Below, piece by piece: positions 14,730-28,733 of a stretch of 38,153 bases of DNA (position 1 is the first letter of the stretch; every line of letters begins with the position of its first letter). The notes below the pieces were generated by a model that did not search any database, was not told the DNA's origin, and saw only the letters and a program-made list of their open reading frames with translations. The translations under genes were made by a program, and so were the position numbers. Source of the stretch: a virus; IMG/VR virus record IMGVR_UViG_3300047667_000909, positions 1-38,153 of that record, one strand, 5' to 3'.

Positions 14730-17700
14730 ATGCGTAAAATAATCCTCTTAGCCCTCGTCTTGGTTATCGTCACATCCGCCGACCTTTTCGGACAGTTCCG
14801 TTTAGCCTCGGATGGCTTTGTTTCCCAATTTAGCAACCCAAACGACAGCACTTATATTGTTGACGTTGACCTATTTTCTGACCTTACGGGTACGGGGTAT
14901 GTCCCGACCGGTATAACCACCGCCTACCGCGTATTTAGCCAGCGCGGTCAGTTGTACCGGATCAGCGCAACGTCAAACCTTACGTTTAGTTCTGCACGCT
15001 TAACGCTGGTAGAAATCGACAACGACCAAGTTAATACCGAGGGTTTACCAACCGGCCAAATACAAATCTTTGACCCGGGAGCGGTAGGGGCAATACCACA
15101 AGTACCTTTTGGCACGACCGGCGCAACGTCTGTTTTGCAAGCGGCCGTCGTGTCGTACAATAGTATTATCCCGTCAGTATCCGCAGGAGTGAGCGCCGCA
15201 CAGGTAAAGGTAGACGTGGATTCGGCGCTGGTAGCTGCAAAGGGGTATGCCGACCTAAAAGAACAAAGAGATTCAAGGGGAAGCATTAGCCAAGGGGCAA
15301 ACATGGCATACAAGATAGGAGTAGACACATTCAAGCAACCTAACATTTGGCTGGTTGGCGACAGTAAGTTAAACGCAGTACATACAATATCGAAAATACA
15401 AGCCAACTACGGCGCGGCCTATGGCTTTGCAGGGACTGGCTATATGTCATTAAGCACAAAAAATAACGGGCGGTTAGGACTAATACCAAGGGCCACCTCG
15501 TCCGCTCCGGTAGAATACCCCGGAACGGTTTTCGCAAAATATTCCTTAGACGGACAGGCCCAAGAATTAACAGGAACGGGGGAAGTAAGGATAGAGCTAA
15601 ATACCAATTACACAACCTACACAGATGATCTAACTTGTACCTATTGGGACTACGCAAAGATTAGCTATCTACGCCACCCATCGGGGGGAAACATTAAAAT
15701 TATCGTAGACGACATTACGTTGGCAACGATTGACGCAAACGGGGCGGAGGCTAAAATGATCTACGAAATAACCGGACTTGCGGACACTTCGCACACCCTT
15801 AAGATTGAGAATGTAAGCGGGACAAATTACACCTTAGATGCGTATTTTTTGAGGACTAACGCTAAAGGAATTATCGTGAACTGTTTGTCCAATTCGGGGT
15901 ATGACGCTGAACTGTTCAATACTTTGCTGGACTTTCCGAACAAGGAAATGCTTTCTAGTTACCCTCCCGATGCGGTGGTCGTAAGATTAGGAACAAACGA
16001 CAGTAATAGGGACTTTACACCTACTGCCTTTGTTGCGAACGTTGCGCGGATAGTGGACACCTTACAAAATTACGGGCCGAGTTCGGATGTTTTACTAGTC
16101 GGTATTGAGGGAATGGCACTAGGAACTATCTATACCGATACGGAGTACAACGCAAAGCTAAAGAGTTCGGCAGATGCTAGATATTGGCGGTTTGCAAATC
16201 TGTACGACATAGTTCCCGACGCTGCAACTTTCCAAAGCCGGGGTTTCTCAACGGACGCCGTACATGAAAGTAGGGAAGGTTCGCACCTGATTGGTAATTT
16301 TATCTTTAGTGCTATTCAGAACAATGGAGGAGCCAGCAGTTTACCGCAAGACCTTCAAGCAGCCACAGACGTAGGGGCGGTAACGGATAATCCAATTACA
16401 ATAAACGCAAATCTGAACCTGCAAGACGCCAACGGGAATATCAGGATCGGACTACAAGCGGGGGAAGATCTTACAACAGGTACGTTCAATATAATGCGTG
16501 GCTACCAATCAGCACTCAACACAACTACCGGCGGCTACAACGTCTTCGACGGCTACCAAGTAGCTTTTAGAAACACCACAGGAGAAAAGAATGTAGTCAT
16601 AGGAGGGCAATCTTTTTTCAACAACAGAACAGGGTCGCAAAACTTTGCGCTCGGCGCCCAAGCCGGGCAGTTCGCTACCGGTAGTGTGCCTCTATTTACG
16701 GCCAATCAGTCCATGTACGTCGGCCCTATGACCGAGGCAGCGTATGACAACCCTATCAATGAAAACGTTTTTGGGTTTGACGCAATAGGAAACGGATCAA
16801 ACAGCTTTACTTTTGGGAACGATAACACGGATTCAACTTTCCTAAAGGGGACTGTTCATTTTAACGCTGCGCCTGACCTAAATAGCAATTATTTAGGTGG
16901 TCTTTTAGACCCAGTAAGTAACCAACAAGGAGCGACGAAAGGATATGTAGACGCGCAAACATCCGCAATTGCGTCGCAATGGACGACAACGGGAAGTGAC
17001 ATTTACTACAATACGGGAAACGTTGGTATAGGCACCGTAACACCTACTACAAACCTGCATATATCAGAACCTACACTAAACGCACAGCTAAGATTAGACG
17101 CTGCACAGTTTGCCACTTTTATAATCAGCTCTGACCTATCCAGCACATCGGACCGTGACCCGTCTTTTCGTTTTGAAACGCAAGGCGTCGAACGTTGGCG
17201 AGTAGGCGTTGACGATAGCGATAGCGACGCTTTTGTAATAAGCGCCAGCGTTTTAAGTTCCACCGCCGCCGCCATATTCATACAAAAAGATAATAAGTAC
17301 GTAGGATTCGGGACGGATCCAACGCAACAGATAGACGTTGCTGGAAGCATTAGAGCCCGGGGTATTGGAACCGGAACACCTACAACCGGACTGGGAACCA
17401 CGTCAAACGGTACGTTTGCGAAAACCGACCTATTTATAAACTCTGCAATCCAAACAGACATAAATAATGCTCAGACAGACGCGGAAGCGTATGCCAGTAC
17501 ATTAGCAAACGGCATCCAATTTGCTACACAAGACGCGGATTCGGTAGTGACGTCGGTAAACCCAAAAGTTTACTTTACCCTAATCACTACCACCTCGGCC
17601 AGCGGTCCTACAAGCCTTGTGCTCCCGCCCGCTGCGGCGGCTAGAGCTGGACAAACAATAAGCCTCTTTAGTATTCTCGGTCCGGGAGCGACGGAGGATA

Positions 17701-17840
17701 ACAGATTTAGCACCACAAGCGGAGATATTAGAAACGGGACCGCTACGGTTTCAAGCCTTGTAGTAGCGGTCGGAAACGTGGTAAGCGTAACGTGTAGACT
17801 GATTAACACATCGGGTACTTATAATTGGGTGGTGAATTAA
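14730..17840 (+). CDS. Large fibre with signal peptide and SGNH hydrolase domain
   Basis: A 1036-residue protein. Residues 1-22 look like an Sec signal peptide (two basic residues, a hydrophobic core, then LFGQ), odd for a virion protein. An SGNH hydrolase domain spans about 205-530: GDS with Ser212, GTND with Asn423, and DAVH with Asp509 and His512. It would act as an esterase, for example deacetylating a surface glycan. Residues about 565-650 are head-type repeats (IRIGLQAG, NIMRGYQSA, NVVIGGQS, NFALGAQAG). Then come GATKGYVDAQ and two VGIGT/VGFGT..P segments typical of fibre shafts, and a beta-rich C-terminus. Codon use is more AT-rich, with many AGA/GGA codons, suggesting transfer. It lies between terminator and sheath genes instead of with the other fibres. 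Confidence 0.8.
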   Translation: MRKIILLALVLVIVTSADLFGQFRLASDGFVSQFSNPNDSTYIVDVDLFSDLTGTGYVPTGITTAYRVFSQRGQLYRISATSNLTFSSARLTLVEIDNDQVNTEGLPTGQIQIFDPGAVGAIPQVPFGTTGATSVLQAAVVSYNSIIPSVSAGVSAAQVKVDVDSALVAAKGYADLKEQRDSRGSISQGANMAYKIGVDTFKQPNIWLVGDSKLNAVHTISKIQANYGAAYGFAGTGYMSLSTKNNGRLGLIPRATSSAPVEYPGTVFAKYSLDGQAQELTGTGEVRIELNTNYTTYTDDLTCTYWDYAKISYLRHPSGGNIKIIVDDITLATIDANGAEAKMIYEITGLADTSHTLKIENVSGTNYTLDAYFLRTNAKGIIVNCLSNSGYDAELFNTLLDFPNKEMLSSYPPDAVVVRLGTNDSNRDFTPTAFVANVARIVDTLQNYGPSSDVLLVGIEGMALGTIYTDTEYNAKLKSSADARYWRFANLYDIVPDAATFQSRGFSTDAVHESREGSHLIGNFIFSAIQNNGGASSLPQDLQAATDVGAVTDNPITINANLNLQDANGNIRIGLQAGEDLTTGTFNIMRGYQSALNTTTGGYNVFDGYQVAFRNTTGEKNVVIGGQSFFNNRTGSQNFALGAQAGQFATGSVPLFTANQSMYVGPMTEAAYDNPINENVFGFDAIGNGSNSFTFGNDNTDSTFLKGTVHFNAAPDLNSNYLGGLLDPVSNQQGATKGYVDAQTSAIASQWTTTGSDIYYNTGNVGIGTVTPTTNLHISEPTLNAQLRLDAAQFATFIISSDLSSTSDRDPSFRFETQGVERWRVGVDDSDSDAFVISASVLSSTAAAIFIQKDNKYVGFGTDPTQQIDVAGSIRARGIGTGTPTTGLGTTSNGTFAKTDLFINSAIQTDINNAQTDAEAYASTLANGIQFATQDADSVVTSVNPKVYFTLITTTSASGPTSLVLPPAAAARAGQTISLFSILGPGATEDNRFSTTSGDIRNGTATVSSLVVAVGNVVSVTCRLINTSGTYNWVVN

Positions 17841-17878: not shown

Positions 17879-18274
17879 ATGACAGAACTATTTGAACTTT
17901 TCCGTGAACATCCTAAAACCATGTGGGCCCTTGTAGGCGGGCTACTTACGTCCGTAGGGGTGTTCCTTATCGCTGGTCGTGCCATTATCCACCGCATACG
18001 AGGTAAGCACATGGCTACCGCCATGGACCGCATGGACGGCCTTTTTTCTCGGCAAGATACCCGCATTGAAAAGCTAGAGATTAGGTTAATGGCGGTAGAG
18101 GAGGAAAAGTTGGCCGCCAACCTCCGGGCGGCCAAGGCCGAACACCGCGCGGCGCAAGCGGAGCAGAGGGCGTCGCAAGCGGAGCAACAAATGGGCGACC
18201 TTCGTAACATTATCGTAGAGCTTCGCGCCCGCCTACTGCACTTAGAGCGCGAACGGGACACAAAAAAAATATAG
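17879..18274 (+). CDS. Membrane-anchored coiled-coil protein, lysis candidate
   Basis: A 131-residue protein with one membrane segment at about 14-34 (MWALVGGLLTSVGVFLIAG), then a basic patch (HRIRGKH) and a long helical region to the end, rich in Glu, Ala, Arg and Gln (AAKAEHRAAQAEQRASQAEQ) that should form a coiled coil. A single N-terminal anchor plus periplasmic or cytoplasmic coiled coil resembles inner-membrane spanins or holin-like lysis proteins. No outer-membrane partner is seen. It starts 38 nt after the fibre gene. Topology is visible; function is inference. Confidence 0.65.
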   Translation: MTELFELFREHPKTMWALVGGLLTSVGVFLIAGRAIIHRIRGKHMATAMDRMDGLFSRQDTRIEKLEIRLMAVEEEKLAANLRAAKAEHRAAQAEQRASQAEQQMGDLRNIIVELRARLLHLERERDTKKI

Positions 18275-18928: not shown

Positions 18929-20341
18929 ATGCTAGGATTCCTCCACGGTGTAGAGATCGACGAAGTGTCAACAGGTAATAACAATATCACTACCGTACCC
19001 TCCGGCGTTATCGGTCTCGTGGGCACCGCCCCCAAAGGTGCAACTAACGCGCTGACGGTTATTTCCTCCTCTCGTCAGGGTCTCGAAATCTTTGGCGAAG
19101 ACGTCCCCGGGTTCACCATCCCGGCAGCCCTTGACGCTATTTTCGCCCAAGGCGGTGCGAAAGTACTAGTTGTAAACGTCTTTGACCCGGCCGCCCACAC
19201 TATAACGGTAGCTGACGAGACGGTTACTATCGCCAACGGGGCCGCAACGCTCGCAAATGAGCCGGTCGACTCCATCGTAGTCACCAACGCCGCCGGTACG
19301 ACCACGTACGCCGTCGGTGTAGATTTCACAATTACCGCCTACGGCGCCATACGGGTCGTCAATACGGTGTCGATTCCTAACGGAAGCGAACTCCTCGTGG
19401 ACTACCGCCACCTCGACCCGGCCGCCATTACGGCAGTCGTAGTTAACGGTTCGGCGGCCGCCCCACGGACGGGCGTAGAACTCTTGGAGGAGGCCGACTT
19501 AACTTTGGGCTACTCTCCTAAAATTCTTATCTCCCCTACTTACGTGGAGGAGGCGAGCACCTCCGCCCTACTGTTGGCGAAGGCTGCCGCGTTCCTCGGC
19601 GTTGCGCTTATCGACGCTCCGGAGGCCGCCACCCCCGCCGGTGTTATCGCCGGGCGAGGACCCGCCGGCGGAGTCCCCGGTTTTCAAACGACAGACAAAC
19701 GGGCCGTACTCCTATACCCGTACGTAAAAGACACCGACGCCCGCAACAACCCGGTAAACCGGCCAATGTCGGCCTACGCTGCCGGCCTCATGTCCGTTGT
19801 CGACGCTACCGAGGGGTATTGGGTCTCTCCATCAAACCACCAACTCAAAAGCATTCTCGGCCCGGCCACATTCCTTACCTCCGGTTTCCGTAACGCTAAC
19901 AGCGACGTGAACCAACTTAACGAGGTGGGCGTTACCTCCATCCTTAACGCCTTCGGTACCGGTTTCCGTCTTTGGGGCAACCGCAACGCCTCGGCACCAC
20001 TAAACACGGTGTCGGACGTATTTATCTCCGTACAACGGACCAAAGACGTACTTAACGACTCCGTGGCGTTCTCTATGCTACCTTTCATTGACCGGCCCAT
20101 TACGCCGGCGCTTATCGACTCAATCCGGGAGGCGGTCAACTCGTACCTTCGTACCCTTACCGGGCTTGGCGCCATTCTGGACGGACGGTGTGCGTACATC
20201 CCGGCGGACAACCCTACGGCCGCTTTGGCCCAAGGCAAACTCGTTTTTGACCTTTCGTTTCAACCTCCGACACCTGCCGAACGCGTAACCTTTAAATCCT
20301 ATTTGGACCAAGGGATACTAGACGCGGTACTAAACGCATAA
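18929..20341 (+). CDS. Tail sheath protein (Mu gpL type)
   Basis: A 470-residue contractile tail sheath subunit. The N-terminus (HGVEIDEVSTGNNNITTVPSG then VIGLVGTAPKGA) is typical, as are the later KAVLLYPYVKDTDA-type segment, the VSPSNHQLKSILGP stretch and the C-terminal FISVQRTKDVLNDSV then TALTGLGAILDG-like region (RTLTGLGAILDGRC) and a final LSFQPPTPAERVTF. It polymerises around the tube and contracts to drive the tube through the envelope. Length fits the Mu/P2 type. It opens the tail operon, 37 nt before the tube gene. Confidence 0.95.
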   Translation: MLGFLHGVEIDEVSTGNNNITTVPSGVIGLVGTAPKGATNALTVISSSRQGLEIFGEDVPGFTIPAALDAIFAQGGAKVLVVNVFDPAAHTITVADETVTIANGAATLANEPVDSIVVTNAAGTTTYAVGVDFTITAYGAIRVVNTVSIPNGSELLVDYRHLDPAAITAVVVNGSAAAPRTGVELLEEADLTLGYSPKILISPTYVEEASTSALLLAKAAAFLGVALIDAPEAATPAGVIAGRGPAGGVPGFQTTDKRAVLLYPYVKDTDARNNPVNRPMSAYAAGLMSVVDATEGYWVSPSNHQLKSILGPATFLTSGFRNANSDVNQLNEVGVTSILNAFGTGFRLWGNRNASAPLNTVSDVFISVQRTKDVLNDSVAFSMLPFIDRPITPALIDSIREAVNSYLRTLTGLGAILDGRCAYIPADNPTAALAQGKLVFDLSFQPPTPAERVTFKSYLDQGILDAVLNA

Positions 20342-20378: not shown

Positions 20379-20897
20379 ATGGGCATACAAATCAATCGCG
20401 TAACTAACGGAAATCTTTACATCGACGGTGCCAACTTTCTCGGCACCGTAATGGAGATGAACTTACCGGCCATCACTCAAAAGACCGCCGAACACAACGC
20501 CCTCGGAATGATTGGCACGGTAGAAACCTTCGCCGGTTTCGAGAAAATGGAGTCTACCATTAAGTGGACGGCAGTTTACGCCAAGGTCCTCTCGTTAATC
20601 TCCGACCCATTCAAATCGCACAGCCTCCAACTACGGGGAAATATAGATAAGTTCGACTCGGGCGGCCTCAACGCCCAAGAGTCGTACGTGGTCTATCTCA
20701 CCGCCGCGTTTAAGAAAGTCCCTACGGGCGATTTTAAGCAGCACGAAAACGTCGAACTCGAAACCGAGTTGGCGGTAACCGCCATCAAGGTAGAGATCGC
20801 GGGCGCGGAGATTCTCGAATTTGACGCCCTCGCCAACATCTATAAGGTAGATGGCGTGGATAAACTTGCAACATACCGGGCCAACATCGGCGCGTAA
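20379..20897 (+). CDS. Tail tube protein (Mu gpM / P2 FII type)
   Basis: A 172-residue inner tube subunit. INRVTNGNLYIDGANFLGTV at the start, then MEMNLPAITQKTAEHNALGMI, then ELETELAVTAIKVEIAGAEI near the end match the contractile-tail tube family. It stacks in rings along the tape measure inside the sheath. The leader has ATTAAACCCCCAATG, an A-rich site also found inside the capsid fusion gene. The order sheath, tube, chaperone, tape measure is standard. Confidence 0.95.
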   Translation: MGIQINRVTNGNLYIDGANFLGTVMEMNLPAITQKTAEHNALGMIGTVETFAGFEKMESTIKWTAVYAKVLSLISDPFKSHSLQLRGNIDKFDSGGLNAQESYVVYLTAAFKKVPTGDFKQHENVELETELAVTAIKVEIAGAEILEFDALANIYKVDGVDKLATYRANIGA

Positions 20898-20968: not shown

Positions 20969-20996
20969 TATAACATTATAACACTATACCATTATG
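20969..20996 (+). repeat. Tandem octamer leader
   Basis: TATAACAT, TATAACAC, TATACCAT, then TATG, the last containing the ATG of the chaperone gene, in register. Three 8-nt repeats run directly into the start codon. Confidence 0.7.
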
Positions 20997-21266
20997 CCAA
21001 AGCAAGTAAGAGACGTAGTGACGTTCGTACATGATTTTAACTTACCAGCGTCAGGTAAGAAGTGCTCGTTTATTGATTTTCGGGGCCACCACATGGTAGA
21101 GGCGACCCGCCTAATGGACGGCAAAGTTGAAATGTTCACGCCGGCCCTTATGCACGTAGTTGCACGTGTTGAAGGCGTAAAGATTACGATGGAGGAGTTT
21201 TTGGAAATGAAGGGTAAGGATTACATGGCGATTACCACCGCGCTTTCGGAGCAGGGTTTTATTTAA
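20994..21266 (+). CDS. Tail assembly chaperone, short product
   Basis: The unshifted 90-residue product. It has a beta-strand start (VRDVVTFVHDFNLP), then FIDFRGHHMVEATRLMDGKVEMF and a helical end (KGKDYMAITTALSEQGFI). Position between tube and tape measure genes and the slippery site at its end identify it as the G-type tail assembly chaperone, which binds the tape measure during assembly and is not in the virion. It is made in excess over the shifted form. The stop is TAA at 21264. Confidence 0.85.
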   Translation: MPKQVRDVVTFVHDFNLPASGKKCSFIDFRGHHMVEATRLMDGKVEMFTPALMHVVARVEGVKITMEEFLEMKGKDYMAITTALSEQGFI

Positions 21267-21421
21267 TCTCCGAGGCGGATGTTATATTTTTGGCCAGTAT
21301 AACCGGTTGGAGCTACTCCGAAATAATGTATACGATACCGCCCCGTGAGATTTTCCGATACCATGCCGAGGCCGTTAAGCTTCACAATAAGTTAGCGAAA
21401 CAAGCAAACGCCGGGGGTTAA
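20994..21421 (+). CDS. Tail assembly chaperone, -1 frameshift product (G-T type)
   Basis: Ribosomes slipping back one base at GGGTTTT (21254-21260) read a second frame from 21260 to the stop at 21419-21421, adding 53 residues for a total of 142. The added part begins YLISEADVIFLASITGWSYS and contains EIMYTIPPREIFRYH, in line with the short C-terminal domains of such fused chaperones. In lambda the same trick uses GGGAAAG. The -1 frame has no stop and no good start of its own, which is why it is missed as a gene. The ratio of forms is set by the slippage rate. Confidence 0.85.
21254..21260 (+). promoter_or_regulatory. -1 ribosomal slippery heptamer
   Basis: G GGT TTT in the 0 frame is a perfect X XXY YYZ heptamer, placed two codons before the 0-frame stop. 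Slipping gives GGG TTT and continues in a 53-codon open frame. Confidence 0.85.
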
Positions 21422-21436
21422 TCTCTCCGGCGTTTT
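21408..21436 (+). terminator. Hairpin with T-run between chaperone and tape measure
   Basis: ACGCCGG (21408-21414) pairs with CCGGCGT (21427-21433), then TTTT. It overlaps the stop codon of the shifted chaperone, so translation to that stop would melt or cover part of it. It may tune read-through into the tape measure gene. Confidence 0.55.
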
Positions 21437-21451
21437 CTGATAAATGAAAAA

Positions 21452-23398
21452 ATGAAAAAACTACTTACCGCGCTCATTACGCTTAAGGCCGTAGACAAAA
21501 TGTCGTCGACCGTTAACCGCGCGTATGGCAACGCGCAAAGTAAGTTGTCTAGGTTGTCGCGTAGTAGTGACCGCGTTGCGAAAAAATCTACGGCCATCGC
21601 CTCCTCGGCCGGTATCGCGTCGCTTGGCATGGCGGCCGCGCTCTCCGTACCCGTCCAAAAGGCCATACAATTCGAGCAAGCCATGGCGGACGTTGGCGCC
21701 GTTATGGCCAACGTGACGGGGCCTCAGATGGAGGCCCTAAATAAGCAAGCCCGGCACCTCGGGGCCACGACACAGTTTACGGCCACGCAAGCCGCCGAGG
21801 CTATGGGTTTCCTCGCCATGGCGGGTTTCGACGCCACGCAAACTATGGAGGCCATGCCGTCTATGCTGAATTTATCAGCGGCCGGCGCTCTTGACTTGGC
21901 GAAAACTGCGGATATAGCTAGTAACGTTCTTACAGGTTTCGGGTTAGAGGCGAACCAAATGACCCGAGTGGCGGACGCCCTTACGGCCGGTTTCACCTCT
22001 ACGAACACGGACCTTGTTATGTTGGGGGAGACTATGAAGTTCGCCGCCCCCATCGCCTCAAAACTTAATCTTTCGTTGGAGGATACCGTGGCCATCGCCG
22101 GTATGTTGGGTGACGCTGGAATACAGGGCTCGATGGGGGGTACCGCCGTACGTACCTCGCTCCTCCGCTTGGCCGGCCCGCTACGTAAGGGTGAAAAAGC
22201 CCTAAAAAAATACGGCATCGCTACGTTAGACCTTGCTGGAAACGTTAAGCCGGTCCCGACGCTCTTTGCGGAGATTGGGAACAAGCTAGACGCGTTGCCG
22301 TCAGGCGCTAAAATGGCCGCTCTCCGGGATATCTTCGGCACGGAGGCCACAAGCGCCGCCGCTGTTTTTCTAAACCAAAAACGAAACGCCACCTTACAAG
22401 ATTATATTGCCAAGTTGCAAGAGGCTAAAACGGCCGAGCAAGTAGCGGCCGCCCGGATGGCGACCACTAACGGTGAAATACTAAAACTAAATTCGGCGTA
22501 CGAAGACGCCATGATTACGATAGGACTGGCCTTTTTGCCAATGCTCGTAAAGGTCGCCCAAAAGGCCGCCGCCGTAGCTACGGCCATCTCTACGTGGGCG
22601 CAAGCGAACCCCAAACTTTTTAAGACGCTTGCTAAAATCGTACTCGTAGTGGGTGCGGTTATCTCGGCCATCGCCGTCGTTGCTACGGTAGTTGCCGCCG
22701 TATCCTCCGCCGTCGGTTTTATGGCCACGGTGTTCTCCGTCGTGGGTACCGTTATTGGCTTCGTATCGGGTGTAGTAGCCACGATAATTCCATTCATATC
22801 GGCTTTAGCTGCCGGCTTTACTTTCCTTACTGGTATTGCGGCTTTGCCCTTCGTGTTGGTAGCCGCCGCGATTGCTGCCGCCGCGTTTTTGATATACAAA
22901 TATTGGGACCAAATCCAAGCTTTTTTCGTAAAGCTCGGCCCTAAGATGTTGTCCGCTGGTAAGAGTATTGTAAACATGATCGGCCAAGGAATAAAGTTTG
23001 CCCTAACCGGTCCGCTTTCACCTTTCGGATTAATGAAGGCCAACGTTAAAAAGATACGCGATCTACTGCCGTTTAGCCCGGCCAAGACCGGACCGCTACG
23101 GGATATCCACCGTATAAAACTGGTGGAGACCATCGCCGGGAGCATAAAATCTAAACCTCTCGTATCGGCCATGACCGGCGTGGTAGGCGACGTTGCGAAT
23201 ATGTCAGGCGCCCGGCCGGCGTTATCGCCCTCCTCGTCCGGCGGCGGTGCGATCAATGCACCGATAACGGTAACCTTTAACGGGGCCGTTTCGGAGAACG
23301 ATAAAATGGATTTTCGCAAGATGTTGGAGACCCACAAAGCCGACCTCGCCCGAATGATGGGGCGCATAAATAACGACACTAAACGCCTCGCATACTAA
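21452..23398 (+). CDS. Tail tape measure protein (TP901 type)
   Basis: A 648-residue protein that sets tail length. The N-terminal 100 residues are helical and basic (DKMSSTVNRAYGNAQSKLSR). The conserved TP901 core is clear: AIQFEQAMADVGAVMANVTG, then ARHLGATTQFTATQAAEAMG and GVIAL-like FKFAAPIASKLNLSLEDTVA with GIQGSMGGTAVRTSLLRL. Hydrophobic helices follow between about 375 and 490 (VVGAVISAIAVVATVVAAV; LAAGFTFLTGIAALPF), which may enter the membrane during DNA delivery. The C-terminus is Ser/Gly-rich then charged. It starts 30 nt after the chaperone stop; its stop overlaps the next gene (TAATG). Confidence 0.95.
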   Translation: MKKLLTALITLKAVDKMSSTVNRAYGNAQSKLSRLSRSSDRVAKKSTAIASSAGIASLGMAAALSVPVQKAIQFEQAMADVGAVMANVTGPQMEALNKQARHLGATTQFTATQAAEAMGFLAMAGFDATQTMEAMPSMLNLSAAGALDLAKTADIASNVLTGFGLEANQMTRVADALTAGFTSTNTDLVMLGETMKFAAPIASKLNLSLEDTVAIAGMLGDAGIQGSMGGTAVRTSLLRLAGPLRKGEKALKKYGIATLDLAGNVKPVPTLFAEIGNKLDALPSGAKMAALRDIFGTEATSAAAVFLNQKRNATLQDYIAKLQEAKTAEQVAAARMATTNGEILKLNSAYEDAMITIGLAFLPMLVKVAQKAAAVATAISTWAQANPKLFKTLAKIVLVVGAVISAIAVVATVVAAVSSAVGFMATVFSVVGTVIGFVSGVVATIIPFISALAAGFTFLTGIAALPFVLVAAAIAAAAFLIYKYWDQIQAFFVKLGPKMLSAGKSIVNMIGQGIKFALTGPLSPFGLMKANVKKIRDLLPFSPAKTGPLRDIHRIKLVETIAGSIKSKPLVSAMTGVVGDVANMSGARPALSPSSSGGGAINAPITVTFNGAVSENDKMDFRKMLETHKADLARMMGRINNDTKRLAY

Positions 23399-24258
23399 TG
23401 TATTACACCCTTGGAGATACCATTTTTACCGGAGCGTTCGGACCTTCGGCCGTTTCGGCGGAGTACGGGGCCCCATTGTTCGCACAGCAACAACCCATCG
23501 GCGGCAAAGCCATACTCCAAGACACCGGCACCGGCTTAAACCGGTTCGGGCTTACTCTTTTTCTCGACTTTTCCTTTACCAACGTACCCTCGGCACTCGC
23601 CGAGCTACGCGGGTACATGGACGCCCGGCGCGTCGTAGACTACTCGGCCGGTAACGGTGAGTTTTTCGGTACGTTTGTACTAACTAAAATGGCGGTCACG
23701 GAGCTAAACCGCAACCCTCGGGGCGAACTAGTTACGGCCTCCGTGGCGGTCGACCTCCTCGAATACGTAGACGCGGACCCCGAAGCGTCCCGGCGCCGTA
23801 GAGCGGTTACCGAGGCGGTAGCGGTGACGGAAAACGGAGTTATCCCGGTCCGTGTTACCGCGCTACCGACATCCCCTACGGGGCAAGTCGTGTCTACTCT
23901 TGGCGCCGGCATGGCTGCCGGCTTGGAAGGCGCCCTCATTATCGAACGCGCCGTTATGTTCTCCCCTGAACGCGAAAGTTTACTAAACCAAGCCGAGGCC
24001 ATATATAAAGTTGGTCGGGATAAGGTAGCCGAAGGCATCTCCGCCGCCGCCAACGTCCAAACCTTGGCCGCCCGGGCTCCGACGCTCTTGGCCGATATGG
24101 AGGCCGTAAAAAGTGCAATGGAGGTAGCCGTAGGCGCCGCCAAAACGGGCGACCTAACCAACGCTCGGGCGGCCGCAAGTAACGTCGTAGCCGCGTCCGA
24201 CGTGGCCGCCACAAGCTCCCGTTTTTTATCCGTAGATCTAATAACCCGACGCGCCTAA
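23398..24258 (+). CDS. Tail protein U-like (GpU family)
   Basis: A 286-residue protein. The N-terminal 120 residues match the P2 GpU pattern: the start LGDTIFTGAFGPSAVSAEYG, then TGTGLNRFGLTLFLDFSF, a block that places a ruler-like AELRGYMD and GEFFGTFVLTKMAVTELN. The remaining 150 residues are alanine-rich and helical, which makes it longer than P2 U (about 160). It is thought to take part in tail completion at the baseplate-tube junction. ATG overlaps the tape measure stop and its own stop overlaps the X gene (TAATG), so all three are coupled. Confidence 0.8.
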   Translation: MYYTLGDTIFTGAFGPSAVSAEYGAPLFAQQQPIGGKAILQDTGTGLNRFGLTLFLDFSFTNVPSALAELRGYMDARRVVDYSAGNGEFFGTFVLTKMAVTELNRNPRGELVTASVAVDLLEYVDADPEASRRRRAVTEAVAVTENGVIPVRVTALPTSPTGQVVSTLGAGMAAGLEGALIIERAVMFSPERESLLNQAEAIYKVGRDKVAEGISAAANVQTLAARAPTLLADMEAVKSAMEVAVGAAKTGDLTNARAAASNVVAASDVAATSSRFLSVDLITRRA

Positions 24259-28024: not shown

Positions 28025-28733
28025 CATTGCAAGTGCGCTAGTTAACGCGCCCCACATTACAGCCTTCGCCCGGGCCACCGCCGCCGAACTCGCCGACACG
28101 AGTTTCGCGCCCTTACTTATGTATGTGGTCGACGAAGCGCCCGAGGACGCGTTGTACTATCTAGCGGAACAATTTAACGTCCTCGGCTGGAAAGGGTGGA
28201 ACTTGGCCACGACCGCAACCGCCCGGCGCGAACTGATTAAAAACGCCATACGCCTACAACGCGCGAAAGGTACCCCCTACGCAATACGGGAGGCGGTGCG
28301 TACTCTAGGTTTCGAGACGGCGGTAGTACGAGAGAATATTGGCGTAGATTACGACGCGGCCAACAACCACGACGGGACAATTAGTTACGGAGACGGGGGC
28401 GGCCTTTTCACTTTCCGGGTACTCATCTACGTAGGTGCCGACGTCGCCATTAACGCCACGTCCATCGGCGAAATAACCGAGTTAGTTTTGGCGTATAAAA
28501 ATGCGCGTAGCCACCTTATAGATATTTCCTTTGGTATCACTCTCCAAGACACCCTCGCCTCGGAGGAGACGTTGGAATACGATGGCTCCGAACTTTCGGA
28601 GAGACTAACCCCCGGCGTTTACCACACCGGAGCGGCTACCTATAACGGTGCCGAGACACACAACAACACCGCAAGTTCCGTAAACTTGCGTATTTTTACT
28701 AACGGAACACTAACCGAAGATGCTAACTACTGA
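28017..28733 (+). CDS. Tail protein I
   Basis: A 238-residue baseplate protein of the P2 I / Mu gp48 family, which links baseplate wedge to tail fibres. LYYLAEQFNVLGWKGWNLA, then ARRELIKNAIRLQRAKGTPY and AIREAVRTLGFETAVV are the conserved helical core. After about residue 180 the sequence becomes Thr/Asn-rich (TYNGAETHNNTASSVNL), longer than P2 I, and may contact the next fibre-like gene, which it overlaps by 14 nt. Confidence 0.9.
   Translation: MDNIASALVNAPHITAFARATAAELADTSFAPLLMYVVDEAPEDALYYLAEQFNVLGWKGWNLATTATARRELIKNAIRLQRAKGTPYAIREAVRTLGFETAVVRENIGVDYDAANNHDGTISYGDGGGLFTFRVLIYVGADVAINATSIGEITELVLAYKNARSHLIDISFGITLQDTLASEETLEYDGSELSERLTPGVYHTGAATYNGAETHNNTASSVNLRIFTNGTLTEDANY

Follow-up and report, generated by a model that had tools for sequence, protein, structure and literature searches.

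The phage genome analysed here (the window, a virus record of 38 kb taken over its whole 38,153 nucleotides) very probably encodes an E/E+E' tail-chaperone pair of a contractile-tailed phage, in which the longer product would arise by -1 ribosomal slippage at the heptamer G GGT TTT; from the sequence evidence we put the probability of this reading at about 96%. What the sequences show directly is the anatomy of the site, the order of the genes around it, a -1 relation that relatives keep, and selection acting on the second frame. The pair is strongly supported as a further case of the known chaperone frameshift of tailed phages, apparently real but ordinary. A gene finder would annotate a 90-aa protein here and overlook the 142-aa chaperone fusion.

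The E/E' overlap and its surroundings

The features on which the argument depends are the following, all on the + strand.

18929–20341, +: tail sheath protein, P2 FI type (PHROG 23, E = 2.8e-90; PF04984, PF17482)
20379–20897, +: tail tube protein, P2 FII type (PF04985, E = 1e-49)
20994–21266, +: gene E equivalent, the 0-frame tail assembly chaperone of 90 aa (ORF)
21254–21260, +: slippery heptamer G GGT TTT, in frame with E, the putative -1 shift site
21260–21421, +: E' extension, 53 codons and a TAA stop in the -1 frame (homologous -1 frames, and purifying selection in relatives)
21452–23398, +: tape measure protein, P2 T type (PHROG 28, E = 6.5e-105; PF10145, E = 2e-47)
23398–24258, +: P2 gpU-like tail protein (PF06995, E = 3.3e-12)

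The E/E' pair as a whole (20994–21421) sits between the tube and tape-measure genes, the usual location of frameshifted tail chaperones in tailed phages, and the order sheath, tube, E/E' pair, tape measure and gpU is that of the P2 F operon. The gpU-like gene is followed by genes for a baseplate hub, a baseplate assembly protein, a J-like wedge, a P2 I-like protein and a collar fibre, and the head-side genes encode a gpA-type large terminase, a lambda-type portal and a capsid protein related to Mu gpT.

Direct inspection of the slip site gives the 0-frame codons CAG GGT TTT ATT TAA, with the stop at 21264–21266. The coordinates that the sequence-only reading gave for the heptamer and the -1 frame were right; its statement that the heptamer lies two codons before the 0-frame stop was close, although strictly a single sense codon (ATT) intervenes. 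As it had also described, the -1 frame can be read through 53 codons (21260–21418) and ends shortly before the tape measure, with TAA at 21419–21421 and the tape-measure ATG at 21452. The predicted E+E' fusion is 142 aa long, compared with 90 aa for E alone, and its predicted junction reads SEQGF followed by YLISEADV, with SEQGFYLISEADV as the junction-covering peptide.

Under a first-order Markov model, a 53-codon open -1 run has a probability of about 11% (0.11), and the 53 open codons by themselves are weak evidence for coding. Codon usage bears out the "typical composition" attributed to the -1 frame, which scores a gene-like +0.20 bits per codon; the other two frames score -0.69 and -0.47, and the upstream gene +0.25 bits per codon. 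In-frame X XXY YYZ sites number 240 across all frames of the window, roughly 2 per kb per frame, and about 0.1 would be expected by chance in the 48-nt overlap.

Several further elements were seen in the neighbourhood. A 12-bp hairpin (21406–21435) lies between the stop of E' and the beginning of the tape-measure gene, and 24 nt of it recur antisense, with 23/24 identities, at 28597–28620 (minus strand) within the gene for the P2 I-like tail protein. Between the head and tail genes, a 1036-aa ORF (14730–17840) carries a GDSL lipase/acylhydrolase domain in mid-protein and is without a PHROG match. The ORF at 17879–18274 contains an in-frame A AAA AAA at 18262–18268, six bases from its end, past which the -1 frame is open for 24 further codons; this arrangement may have a chance origin.

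Conservation of the -1 relation among relatives

The evidence that we regard as decisive for the frameshift reading comes from comparison across relatives. These were reached by searches with the tube protein, as a tblastn search of the annotated phage collection with the window's E protein alone gave no hit. Eleven sequences went into the profiles of E and E', which were run against the three forward frames of each fetched locus. In 24 of 24 distinct relatives with both parts recognised, as well as in the window, E' occupies the -1 frame with respect to E, and the same relation holds throughout the further loci in which both parts were found. Relatives with neither the heptamer nor an open -1 frame would have spoken against the sequence-only reading; the relation is -1 in every relative in which both parts are recognisable, and a slippery heptamer is retained in most.

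An in-frame X XXY YYZ is present within the overlap in 21 of the 24 relatives, most commonly A AAT TTT. Because the heptamers found at the homologous place differ between relatives (A AAT TTT, A AAT TTG, A AAA AAA, A AAA AAC, C CCT TTG and G GGA AAG), it is slipperiness and not the exact sequence that is conserved. The -1 relation is kept even where the heptamer is imperfect, namely in the three exceptions among the 24 (G GAT TTT in L008, a run of six G in L017 and L020) and in those among the further loci (a six-G run in L182, G GCT TTT in L184, no perfect heptamer in L190–L193). The expectation that relatives would share the heptamer is therefore borne out for its slippery type, which is mostly kept, but not for G GGT TTT itself, which within the relative set occurs in this phage only. 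The earlier description of this heptamer as "ideal" is fair, since both tRNAs can re-pair, although the same uniqueness tempers it. The only other contig with G GGT TTT (L003/L004/L016) was dropped as independent evidence, being 100% identical over 8.4 kb.

The fused proteins of relatives can be aligned across the E/E' junction; in an alignment of eight of them, divergence was too great for a pattern search. Changes in the -1 frame among relatives are most frequent at third codon positions (568/446/879 for the three positions), and the closest pair, L118 and L153, differ at six sites, all of them third positions of the -1 frame (dS 0.17, dN 0.01). This pattern indicates that the E' frame is under purifying selection among relatives.

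One alternative is that E' is a separate, unfused small protein translated from its own start inside or after E, by translational coupling. Many relatives do have starts in the -1 frame, some of them an ATG about 40–44 codons before the stop, and the only candidates in the window are a TTG and an ATG 43 and 31 codons before it. The position of such starts is not conserved, however. The conserved E' block starts at the slip site or just after it, so that either window start would cut the block, and the first -1 start falls within it in the window, L024, L027, L083 and L105. A separate start would moreover leave unexplained the conserved heptamers in the E frame just upstream, and we consider this alternative very unlikely. 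Because the E' frame is under purifying selection, and because none of the starts available in the window, or in several relatives, would retain the whole conserved domain, E' is most likely read by frameshifting.

Joining of the two frames by transcriptional slippage, not by the ribosome, is less probable still. Longer runs of A or T do occur in a few relatives (nine A in L034), but the longest homopolymer at the window site is four T, transcriptional slippage normally requires longer homopolymers than that, and relatives carry heptamers of mixed composition, AAATTTT and CCCTTTG among them. It is hardly credible that the 0-frame stop is a sequencing error or a genuine mutation that inactivated and split one gene. 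A one-base insertion or deletion would give such a two-part break, but 24 distinct relatives share this -1 break at the corresponding position, and assembly of a second contig yielded the identical sequence.

Five of the relatives (L102, L104, L108, L118 and L153) sit in assemblies named as Bacteroidota; the names of these assemblies only hint at the host group. Among 395 sampled genomes of the phylum of L118, three tube matches were found, including that of L118 itself, and the two new loci were without recognisable E/E'. A second group of small viral contigs (L194–L203, L205, L207–L209) carries E with a diverged E' in the -1 frame; in most of them C CCT TTG or C CCT TTA occupies a constant position, 21 nt ahead of the end of E.

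Relation to known chaperones and a proposed mechanism

The window's E protein falls in PHROG 21320, and its E' has a weak match to DUF6760. The Pfam family PF10109 (Phage_TAC_7) matches the window's E with E = 0.007 alone and 0.00095 as the fusion, both falling short of the curated cut-off; of 10 aligned members, 9 match this family (best E 1.4e-5) and one matches P2_GpE (PF06528), weakly (E = 0.074). By these matches the E part seems closer to Phage_TAC_7 than to the P2_GpE family. An hhalign comparison with P2 E+E' covered 60 columns, mostly in the E' region (probability 59, E = 9.3e-5).

In P2, E (91 aa) and E+E' (142 aa) are produced with a -1 shift at T TTT TTG (PMC3091744), and the P2 annotation carries this shift. 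The window resembles P2 in the order sheath, tube, E/E', tape measure and U, in the -1 direction of the shift and in its product sizes of 90 and 142 aa. It differs in its heptamer, and little sequence is common to the E parts of P2 and the window set. We have accordingly filed the pair under the general G/GT, E/E' kind, P2-like in layout and not a strict P2 E/E'.

The heptamer of lambda G/GT is G GGA AAG. As in lambda, the window has a -1 overlap between the tube and tape-measure genes and a short and a predicted extended chaperone; unlike the contractile tail of this phage, the lambda tail is non-contractile. In lambda, low-level -1 frameshifting between the genes for the major tail protein and the tape measure yields short and extended chaperones, gpG and gpGT, and in Mu gp41/gp42 the shift is -2 (PMC5009743). 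The window's E shares with the Mu pair its nearness to PF10109, but E' is in the -1 frame, not -2, both here and in every relative scored, and the Mu mode is excluded for the window because the Mu shift is -2.

The slippage itself, its efficiency and the roles of both products are what we infer from these comparisons. The majority of ribosomes would translate 20994–21266 and terminate at 21264, giving E (90 aa). A smaller number would pause with GGT in the P site and TTT in the A site, and both tRNAs would move back one base (GGT to GGG, TTT to TTT), after which the slipped ribosome would read 53 codons in the -1 frame to give E+E' (142 aa). If the parallel with lambda gpG/gpGT holds, E may coat the tape-measure protein in many copies, and the E' domain of the rare fusion may recruit the tail tube protein and start tube polymerisation.

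A stem-loop 3' of the heptamer in relatives

A stem-loop a few nt 3' of the heptamer is common in relatives with A AAT TTT, and in twelve loci (L018, L024, L027, L028, L043, L054, L088, L102, L104, L108, L118 and L184) one that is more stable than synonymous recoding would lead one to expect lies about 6–9 nt 3' of it. Stem-loop stability was compared with that of synonymous recodings using local codon usage. The stem-loop stretch gave p < 0.05 in 13 of 27 sequences, with a Stouffer score of -7.8 vs. -2.5 and -1.7 in two control stretches. A sliding scan of 18 relatives gave a single sharp peak over 36 nt, from the second -1-frame codon past the heptamer, with a Stouffer score of -8.1, which overstates independence, as the 18 include sequences that are related to one another; the next strongest position scored -3.5. 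The register of the stem varies between sequences. Its position is the usual place of a frameshift stimulator, making the stem-loop a candidate stimulator in these relatives, and it may be the sole part of the finding that is new.

In the window, a search for a stimulatory structure 3' of the heptamer found none (z between -0.16 and 0.29). In this branch of P2-like tail operons, the common arrangement would be A AAT TTT with a stimulatory stem-loop about 6–9 nt further on, preserved as a structure through changes of sequence and register; the window's phage would have lost the stem-loop or never acquired it and has G GGT TTT instead, as if a trade-off between heptamer strength and stem-loop held the ratio of E to E+E', an idea that we put forward tentatively and at less than even odds. 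Relatives with varied heptamers, with or without the stem-loop, offer a natural series on frameshift efficiency versus tail assembly, one that extends beyond the enterobacterial models. In P2 and three Burkholderia P2-like phages, no comparable structure has been reported (PMC3091744). The heptamer of the window, as GGGUUUU, turns up in text searches of papers on plant and animal RNA virus frameshifting.
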